From the NCBI GenBank assembly GCA_015063385.1, contig SVUG01000004.1:1-64000 (forward strand): a DNA stretch of 64,000 nt, in the 5' to 3' direction. Origin of the DNA: Oscillospiraceae bacterium (GTDB lineage: Bacteria; Bacillota; Clostridia; Oscillospirales; CAG-272). Of this stretch, positions 1 through 19,139 are shown in pieces. The translations under genes and the position numbers were made by a program. The notes beneath the pieces are model-generated. The model did not search any database. It was not told the origin of the DNA and saw only the letters and a list, made by a program, of their open reading frames with translations. Numbering within the stretch: the stretch's first letter is position 1; every line of letters begins with the position of its first letter.

Positions 1-103
1 ATGTTTTGCACCATCAAATAAGAACGGCTACTCAAGCGGCGAAATACGCGCCATTTTTCATCGGAGGGAGCTTGATTTTCACCGTATGCTCCAAATGTAG
101 CCG
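1..103. other. DNA flanking the interrupted sigK, possibly the end of a skin-like element
   Basis: This stretch lies directly past the point where the minus-strand SigK frame loses similarity to the family and stops. None of the three minus-strand frames here encodes the missing sigma regions 3 and 4. One minus-strand frame is open for about 45 codons from inside sigK out through the window edge, but its translation matches nothing I recognise. The simplest reading is the first bases of an inserted element that continues beyond the window. It could also be ordinary DNA downstream of a broken gene. Confidence 0.4.
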
Positions 104-445
104 TTATGATAGGATAGCATTTTGCACGCATTTCGCACCGTACGTGGCAAATCTCGTGCCGAATCCCGGCTTAAATGAATCGACCGCCTTGATGAGTCCA
201 AGGCTTCCAATGGAGAGTAGCTCGTCGGGATATTCGTATGATGCGTAATATTTTCTGATAATATGCGATACAAGGCGTAAATTGTGCTCGATGATTTTAT
301 CACGGGCGCGAGAATCACCGTTTTGCATTTTTTCAAACAGCTCACTCTCCTCACTGCGCGAGAGCGGCGGGGGAAAGCTCTGATTATCCTCAATTCCCAG
401 AATTAGAGAGATAAATCTTAATAAAATATTCTTTAAATCAAGCAT
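104..445 (-). CDS. sigK: RNA polymerase sigma factor SigK, N-terminal half (interrupted gene)
   Basis: This is the N-terminal 113 residues of the late mother-cell sigma factor. It shows the SigK/SigE-type sequence FPPPLSRSEE near residue 24, then [16 protein letters not shown] (core-binding region 2.1) near residue 52, and LLSIGSLGLIKAVDSF (region 2.2) near 77. The match to the family runs to ATYGAKCVQN (residues 100-109), where relatives read ATYAARCIENE. It then changes abruptly and stops 4 codons later, so sigma regions 3 and 4 are missing. In Bacillus subtilis and Clostridioides difficile this is the place where the skin element splits sigK. The gene is likely rejoined by site-specific excision during sporulation, but that is inferred. 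ATG start with GGAG upstream. Confidence 0.8.
   Translation of the reverse strand: MLDLKNILLRFISLILGIEDNQSFPPPLSRSEESELFEKMQNGDSRARDKIIEHNLRLVSHIIRKYYASYEYPDELLSIGSLGLIKAVDSFKPGFGTRFATYGAKCVQNAILS
118..122 (-). other. candidate recombination core of a skin-like element in sigK
   Basis: On the minus strand the codons for Val-Gln-Asn are followed by divergence right after AAATG. In B. subtilis the skin attachment core is AATGA, in the Asn-Glu codons of CIENE. The last four conserved bases here (AATG) therefore coincide with that core in both sequence and reading frame. The opposite end of the element is outside the window, so a matching direct repeat cannot be confirmed. Confidence 0.4.
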
Positions 446-453
446 TTTTTGCT

Positions 454-490
454 CCGTTTCATAATTACTGCTTTAAATTATATGAAACGG
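454..490. repeat. perfect inverted repeat in the sigK leader
   Basis: CCGTTTCATA at 454-463 and TATGAAACGG at 481-490 form a perfect 10-bp inverted repeat with a 17-bp spacer. It lies between the response-regulator-like gene and the sigK start. On the sense strand of sigK the 3' arm ends in the GG of the GGAG ribosome-binding site. The hairpin could therefore hide the site, or the DNA palindrome could be an operator. No T-run follows, so it is not a normal terminator. Confidence 0.45.
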
Positions 491-5068: not shown

Positions 5069-5097
5069 GGGTGAGCCTTGTCGGCTCACCCTTTTTT
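5069..5097. terminator. bidirectional terminator between recR and spo0A
   Basis: GGGTGAGCC (5069-5077), loop TTGTC, GGCTCACCC (5083-5091), then a T-run on the plus strand. On the minus strand a run of T also follows shortly after the stem. It serves the convergent recR and spo0A, and overlaps the last codons of spo0A. Confidence 0.88.
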
Positions 5098-5869
5098 ATA
5101 TTGCCGCGCATCTGTATTTTAGGCGCAAATTATCTGCTATCATAGCAATAAATTCGGAATTGGTGGGCTTTCCGCGGCTGTTCTGTATGGTATAACCAAA
5201 GTAGGAGTTGAGTGTGTCGACGTCACCTCTGTCCCATGCAACCTCGATTGCATGGCGAATAGCTCTCTCAACGCGCGAGGTGGTAGTGCCGTACTTTTTT
5301 GCAACAGTGGGGTAGAGAACCTTTGTGACAGAGTTTATAATATCGTTATCTTCAATAGTCATAAGAATAGCGGTGCGCAAATACTGGTAGCCCTTAATGT
5401 GTGCAGGCACGCCTATCTGATGTATAATTTTCGTCACCTGTGCTTCCATGTCAGCAGCGGCAGAGAACTCGTGCTTTGCACCGCTTTTACCTCTGAGACG
5501 TAATATAGAATCAATGTGACCCACGAGCGAGGCGGTATCAAAAGGCTTGAGCAGGCAAATATCAGCACCTGCCTCGGAGGCCTCTACAAGCACGCTTTCT
5601 TTATTGATAGGCGACATCAGAATGAACGAAGGCTTTAGCGGCATATTGCTTCTCGATATATTTCTTATAATACCTATACCGTCAACTCCGCTTACCCAAA
5701 GGTCAAGAACGGCAATATCGTATACCCCCTTTGAAAGCTTTTCTATAGCAGCTTCGCCGTTTATTGCCTCATCTATAAATCTGAAGCCGGATTTTGTCAG
5801 AAAATCGATGATTCGCCTTCTTTCCTCGCTATTTTCGTCACAAAGTAGTATTTTTGCGTTGTTTTCCAT
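5096..5869 (-). CDS. spo0A: sporulation transcription factor Spo0A
   Basis: 257 residues, the normal length. The receiver domain (1-125) has the acidic pair Asp11-Glu12, phospho-acceptor Asp56 in AVLDLW, and LLKPFD near 107. The DNA-binding domain (about 140-257) has the Spo0A-specific region [17 protein letters not shown] and the recognition-helix region [21 protein letters not shown]. Spo0A~P commits the cell to sporulation. Unlike most Clostridia it does not follow spoIVB or recN here but sits alone, convergent with recR. Its promoter region carries two 0A-box-like sites and a tandem TTGGTAA motif, consistent with self-regulation. Confidence 0.97.
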
Positions 5870-19030: not shown

Positions 19031-19051
19031 ACAAGAGTAAATTAAATAACA

Positions 19052-19131
19052 CTTATCAAGAGCGGTGGAGGGACTGGCCCTGTGAAGCCCGGCAACCTGT
19101 TTTTTCAAGGTGCTAATTCCTGACAGATGAG
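19052..19131 (+). promoter_or_regulatory. SAM-I (S-box) riboswitch aptamer
   Basis: The aptamer begins CTTATCAAGAGCGGTGGAGG and continues with GGGACTGGCCC, GAAGCCCGGCAACC, AAGGTGCTAATTCC and TGACAGATGAG, all in the order of the S-box consensus. P1 is closed by CTTATC with GATGAG. It binds S-adenosylmethionine and lowers metK expression when SAM is plentiful. Confidence 0.96.
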
Positions 19132-19139
19132 TTATGCTC

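Follow-up and report, generated by a model that had tools for sequence, protein, structure and literature searches.

The stretch of DNA analysed here (the window, 64,000 nucleotides) begins inside a sporulation gene. Base 1 of the window is base 1 of a contig of 109,207 bp (C18), so the edge of the window is also the edge of the contig, which belongs to a genome bin (G000) of 28 contigs and 1.69 Mb that is 88% complete. A minus-strand open reading frame at 104-445 encodes 113 amino acids and follows SigK through ATYGAKCVQN, then reads AILS and stops at a TAA codon (106-104). The top-scoring model for residues 1-109 is SigK (TIGR02846, positions 9-111 of 227), and residues 1-112 align at 85% identity with an intact SigK from another genome, G051. 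A first-pass annotation of the window had described a sigK that is normal to ATYGAKCVQN, stops within four codons and has no regions 3 and 4 in the adjoining 103 bases; the stop was borne out, and translation of those bases confirmed the missing regions. The features that concern us are these:

1-119, minus strand: left end of the intervening element, 94% identical to the element end in genome G245
112-121, minus strand: attL, with the Asn codon AAT at 121-119, the AA centre at 121-120 and the element arm TGCTATCC at 119-112
122-445, minus strand: 5' part of sigK, codons 1-108, intact to CVQ, with its ATG at 445, from the model and the G051 match
446-490, minus strand: sigK leader, with a CATATAAT box 39 bases 5' of the ATG
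5096-5869, minus strand: spo0A, encoding the sporulation master regulator (PF08769, E 1.1e-47)

The CATATAAT box is of the -10 type used by the mother-cell sigma factors, and in C. difficile, according to the excerpted text of PMC3789822, a promoter of sigK that is read by sigma-K has the same box; the leader here lacks the full ATA-spacer-CATA pattern. On the other side of the cut, the frame at 119-3 on the minus strand is the start of an Xre-type tail (CYPIITATFGAYGENQAPSDEKWRVFRRLSSRSYLMVQN) that is truncated by the contig end. Elsewhere in the window, on the plus strand, are a bacterial large SRP RNA (2145-2412; Rfam RF01854), directly upstream of an open reading frame at 2518 that is dnaX-like by reading of its translation, and a SAM riboswitch (19050-19133; Rfam RF00162).

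The rest of SigK lies on another contig of the same bin. A family search of the genome returned an orphan sigma-70 region 4 at C24:16455-16604, the first sign of a C-terminal half of 125 amino acids (C24:16419-16793, minus strand) that reads NEILMFFRSKKKHG...PFFED (NEILMFFR...PFFED). It begins at position 111 of TIGR02846, where the N-terminal half stops, and covers positions 111-223. Foreign DNA precedes it, with the contig end 122 bases away, and it is cut at the same codon as the N-terminal half, by way of an AACGA junction. The two parts of sigK in G000 complement each other and are parted at a single site, as is expected of a skin element, and the C-terminal part that the first-pass annotation had predicted is present. 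The same annotation had proposed a core of AATG or AATGA; the codon proved correct, and the bases can now be refined to an Asn codon that is AAT at attL and AAC at attR in G000. No second sigK was found among six sigma-70 region-2 matches or three C-half matches in the 88% complete bin, and we rejected the idea of a decayed second copy, since the bin gave no other copy. These results support the skin-like interpretation of the split gene. The G000 bin does not contain the body of the element and has no match to the Resolvase domain (PF00239); of the large serine recombinase that had also been predicted, G000 has no more than the final 41 residues of the reading frame, on C24, and the complete enzyme comes from related genomes.

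Unrelated contig ends that happened to break in sigK could imitate such a pair through an error of assembly or binning, and the contigs of all six known carriers in the genus do end 70-140 bases into the element. We regard this account as very improbable, and for the relatives it is already refuted. The cut in sigK is not a matter of chance, because the same cut, at the identical base, recurs with homologous foreign sequence in three further genomes (G045, G028 and G024), which confirms that intervening DNA splits the gene. The same structure is also found within single contigs in L143, L163, L165, L170, An867 and S. ovata, and contig breaks would be expected where near-identical ends occur across species or where two forms coexist. 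An explanation of the contig ends by k-mer length was set aside: it is exact only for G018 (where it is the overlap of two contigs) and G026, at 126 bases each, with the others at 71-204. Repeats shared between species account for the breaks equally well.

A search with the N-terminal half covered 98 genomes, 60 of them of the same genus including G000, and in 40 of these 60 the SigK frame is uninterrupted over at least 233 amino acids. An uninterrupted sigK of the same genus (G053:C19:7995-8690) has a single in-frame TAG and is either a pseudogene or a sequencing error. The left end of the element is present in four of 69 same-genus genomes (G000, G045, G028, G024), each time at a contig end, and right ends were found at the sigK C-half in G000, G024, G018 and G026 among the 20 genomes examined for C-halves; at least six of the 69 genomes carry the element. 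The frame that is open from the left junction encodes, in relatives, a protein of about 205 amino acids with HTH_3 domains. We aligned five such tails (one was truncated) and used the alignment as a query: GTDB genomes yielded 65 loci and IMG/VR one more. The tail starts at the sigK cut in 60 of the 66.

The sigK cut is not seen at six loci. L142 lies in a permease-like gene and L173 in a MATE-type gene (names from reading the translations), L132, L134 and L156 are located elsewhere than sigK, and L172 begins within the tail. The element left end occupies 10001-10192 of L173 (CAMEZQ010000006.1) and 10001-10594 of L142. Among the five copies that lie outside sigK, those of L132 and L134 (Hominifimenecus and Agathobaculum) match the tail as far as about codon 140-148, and the small open reading frame described below was not detected in them; the recombinase frame of L134 is also broken, and in the Hominifimenecus genome a SigK-like gene (L195) is uninterrupted. 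Carriers with the element in sigK include isolates titled Oscillibacter, Flavonifractor, Pseudoflavonifractor and Anaeromassilibacillus, a Faecalibacterium strain and Sporomusa ovata. Where both ends lie in sigK on one contig (n=7), the elements measure 7.9, 8.5, 8.6, 9.2, 9.2, 15.3 and 25.2 kb; at one of them, L146, the left end follows just a stub of sigK. In AP018533 (AP018533.1), a complete genome, about 140 kb separate the ends (from about 3055489 to about 3195227), and the element there is either an unusually large intervener or one with later insertions or rearrangement. These distances from relatives stand beside the 5-60 kb that the first-pass annotation had predicted for G000, where each of the two contigs stops within the element.

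The elements that we compared share few genes besides the end genes and the small open reading frame. Element-end patterns and an 84-residue query gave no confirmed locus in viral contigs, where the tail alignment gave one (L181); the 84-residue query had no match among phage or plasmid records, and the whole tail matched seven phage and eight plasmid records over at most 75% and 53% of its length respectively. On these searches we rejected a known phage as the identity of the element.

The first recombinase came from a peptide search of 394 genomes of the order, which had matches in ten. In G312 an open frame of 523 amino acids, its start lost at the contig end, has Resolvase, Recombinase and Zn_ribbon domains and runs as far as the point where the C-half of sigK begins; the three complete recombinases that we scanned all have the same three domains. 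A large serine recombinase is the right-end gene wherever that end was seen in relatives, its 3' end meeting the 3' half of sigK and its transcription running in the sigK direction. We assembled 26 right junctions, 21 of them from a set of 34 loci (the other 13 had uninterrupted sigma-factor sequence) and five more. At all 26 the recombinase is open to the Asn codon of sigK, always in the frame two bases in. The next codon is TGA, from the AATGA of sigK, in 20; in the remaining six, G000 among them, it derives from AACGA and the frame reads on. At the left junctions the tail is in the same frame as the recombinase, and the two share one frame through attP in all 24 genomes with both ends. The tail of these joined frames is full length (195-234 codons) in 18, runs off the contig in three and is interrupted in three (G312, S. 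ovata and ER4). The att site lies within the recombinase gene, as in the suicidal integrases of archaea, provided that the joined frame is translated as a single gene. On excision the recombinase would acquire, in frame, an Xre-type helix-turn-helix tail, and insertion would cut the tail off again, usually by means of a TGA supplied by sigK.

When rebuilt, attP reads GGATAGCG-AA-TGCTATCC, with seven of eight arm positions symmetric about the AA; across ten genomes checked the symmetry ranges from four to seven of eight. The ten bases of attL are identical at the cut in G045, G028, G024, G245 and G312. A palindrome search gave matches in 21 of 69 genomes, and every site but one has a mismatch. 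Six one-mismatch matches to attP among the 394 genomes were dismissed, having no adjacent recombinase or tail, and the attP junction was not found in viral contigs.

Comparison of the cargo brought out a small open reading frame in 44 of the 66 loci; some of the 22 that yielded none end shortly past the tail. It encodes about 55-65 amino acids where the start is clear (5' ends are uncertain in some rows, where the alignment opens on a codon other than a start) with the consensus MxVIVHYPK...HAQAV...KLSC..KEQK. In 42 of the 44 loci the small frame and the tail are on opposite strands, and the distance between them ranges from none to several kilobases. The protein has no match in PHROGs, only sub-cutoff matches in Pfam, one weak match among phage records (E 0.07) and none among plasmid records. 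The pattern ATA-N15-18-CATA-N3-T stands upstream of 23 of the 41 copies that had 120 upstream bases. This sigma-E-type promoter pattern is present in nine of 18 cluster representatives, compared with 1.4% of random windows from the same loci and 1.2% of shuffles; it was framed after these upstream regions had been viewed, and the other nine representatives are without the strict pattern. The pattern nevertheless agrees with what the excerpted PMC3789822 describes for C. difficile, where sigma-E has an ATA motif at -35 and uses -10 boxes, CATATAAT for example, in common with sigma-K, at a classical spacing of 16-18. The pattern is also upstream of one of five recombinases checked (L143). The product of the small frame is a likely candidate for the directionality factor of the element.

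Between some genomes the ends of the element are far better conserved than is the gene that they interrupt. G000 and G245, which belongs to another family, have element ends that are 94% identical (111/118), and their sigK sequences are 60% identical over 239 bases. The element is identical at 95 of 95 bases in G028 and G024, with sigK at 64%, and at 121 of 122 bases in G026 and G024, with sigK at 65%. For the remaining pairs among the eight genomes compared the figures are 59-97% for the element ends and 50-67% for sigK. Because the ends can be 94-100% identical while sigK is only 60-65% identical, the element moves between species by transfer and has not been inherited along with sigK. One bin, G018, holds sigK in both joined and interrupted form. 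Its N-half contig continues for 40 codons into the C-half, as an intact gene would, up to the contig end; its C-half contig runs into the element. These contigs overlap, without a mismatch, by exactly 126 bases, as expected of an assembly-graph fork at k = 127. Either excision or a mixture of strains would produce this pair of forms.

We interpret the locus as a skin-like mobile element, inserted between CVQ and N in sigK, that keeps sigma-K off until it is removed in the mother cell, and we give this reading a probability of about 0.8. Sigma-E would transcribe sigK and the small open reading frame in the mother cell, and the small protein, acting as directionality factor, would let the recombinase recombine attL with attR. 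The circle would then leave, sigK would be rejoined to encode a protein of 233 amino acids, and sigma-K would start the late spore genes, with the chromosome of the spore retaining the element. If the insertion were instead permanent, sigma-K function would be abolished and the hosts would no longer complete spores. Excision is here read from sequence and not from observation, and broken tails or recombinases occur in L134, S. ovata and ER4, both of which accord with permanence. That outcome is nevertheless unlikely: both halves in G000 are open and match SigK models, of 20 carrier genomes searched, 15 have the C-half with its junction and an open frame, the insertion keeps to one codon, with ends that would rejoin in frame, and a joined form is present in G018, albeit one that could come from a strain mixture.

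To the skin-like reading we add a more tentative proposal about the enzyme. On the circle attP would lie inside one frame, and the recombinase would gain the Xre-type tail. Because attP is inside the recombinase gene, the circle would give rise to a fusion and the inserted element to a tailless enzyme; integration removes the tail, so the enzyme of the inserted element would differ from that of the circle. The recombinase may in this way sense its own state: the tail would control or favour integration, perhaps in a new host, or repress the circle by regulating its own recombinase gene, and the tailless enzyme would excise with the small protein that sigma-E drives. We consider this proposal a little less likely than not, and it has to be weighed against another account, in which the shared frame has no function, the recombinase ends at the att core and the tail is an independent Xre regulator translated from an internal GTG, TTG or ATG.

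The tails themselves bear on both accounts. At 43 of the 66 left junctions (60 loci and six of the bins) the tail stays open for 190 codons or more; at 15 it runs off the contig, and at eight, of the 51 not cut by a contig end, it is interrupted. A Trp at codon 20, 23, 26 or 29 is present in 64 of the 66, and this residue and 19 other columns are invariant across 23 aligned tails. Over 246 pairs of sequences pN/pS is 1.22 for codons 1-10, 0.56-0.75 for codons 11-40, 0.06-0.27 for codons 41-130 and 0.14-0.38 beyond, so that clear protein constraint begins at about codon 41. For codons 4-46 dN/dS in the coding frame is indistinguishable from that in the other two (medians 0.77, 0.76 and 0.84). 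Constraint at the level of DNA is to be expected in codons 1-10, because they double as an arm of attP. An internal start would be in keeping with the weak protein constraint before codon 41, with the 38 of 64 tails that have an ATG, GTG or TTG between the junction and the conserved Trp and with the eight interrupted tails; Xre regulators are also common on mobile elements. The other 26 of the 64 have no such codon before the Trp, and L120, L163 and L165 have none within their first 48 codons, which counts against it, as do the invariant columns and the single frame shared in every genome with both ends. We judge the internal start to be possible yet somewhat doubtful. The weak constraint over codons 1-40 and the interrupted copies imply that some elements can do without the tail or are losing it. 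Our reading of the sequences is that the fusion made by the circle is probably real, with a weakly constrained linker, and that an internal start is the alternative to it.

By its expected function the element would be a skin element. It resembles skinBs of Bacillus subtilis and skinCd of Clostridioides difficile in splitting sigK and in having a large serine recombinase, which in our case is seen in relatives. The C. difficile element has a directionality factor of 72 amino acids, CD1234, under the control of sigma-E and SpoIIID (PMC5025042, in excerpt), and the small open reading frame here is a candidate factor with a sigma-E-type promoter in part of the loci. The same excerpt places skinBs and skinCd at different sites in sigK and in opposite orientation. 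The recombinase gene is at the 5' part of sigK in B. subtilis (excerpted PMC10747680) and also in C. difficile, where the attL primer is in the 3' part of CD1231 (excerpted PMC5025042). As far as these excerpted descriptions go, our element differs from both in that the 3' end of the recombinase is at the 3' half of sigK, with transcription in the sigK direction, and in that attP lies inside the frame of the recombinase and its tail. SPbeta in spsM, yin in yabG and gin in gerE likewise rebuild a sporulation gene, with a recombinase and a proven or putative small factor; their targets are different, and the excerpts of their descriptions make no mention of an attP in frame.

The suicidal integrases of archaea (SSV1, pTN3 and pT26-2) have an att site in the recombinase gene, which is split by integration; in the excerpted account they are stated to be confined to archaea, are tyrosine enzymes, and leave two fragments that are described as inactive (PMC8371274). 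The enzyme here is a serine recombinase with a Resolvase domain, and it keeps its catalytic, Recombinase and zinc-ribbon domains, losing only the C-terminal Xre-type tail. In engineered fusions of serine integrases to directionality factors the added part could alter the direction of recombination (PMC5737554, in excerpt); in our element the corresponding part occurs naturally, resembles Xre and is predicted in the excised form only. The attP in frame would be the serine-recombinase counterpart of the self-splitting integrases of archaea. Interveners in sigK have been described so far, in the excerpted literature, from Bacillus, C. difficile, some other clostridia and Alicyclobacillus. Neither this family nor an in-frame attP in a serine recombinase appeared in earlier reports that we could find, in a literature consulted partly as excerpts and mostly outside the subscription journals.

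A single codon of sigK is hit across Oscillospirales, Sporomusa and others, including cultured isolates from the gut. This spread, together with the movement of the element between species, suggests that the regulated splitting of sporulation genes may be common in gut anaerobes, and pipelines for gene calling may score the carriers as lacking sigK. The attP in frame makes it testable whether the direction in which a recombinase acts depends on its own state of integration. If that is true, one enzyme would act differently according to whether its own DNA is inserted or excised, and would do so within a spore gene of many gut Clostridia.
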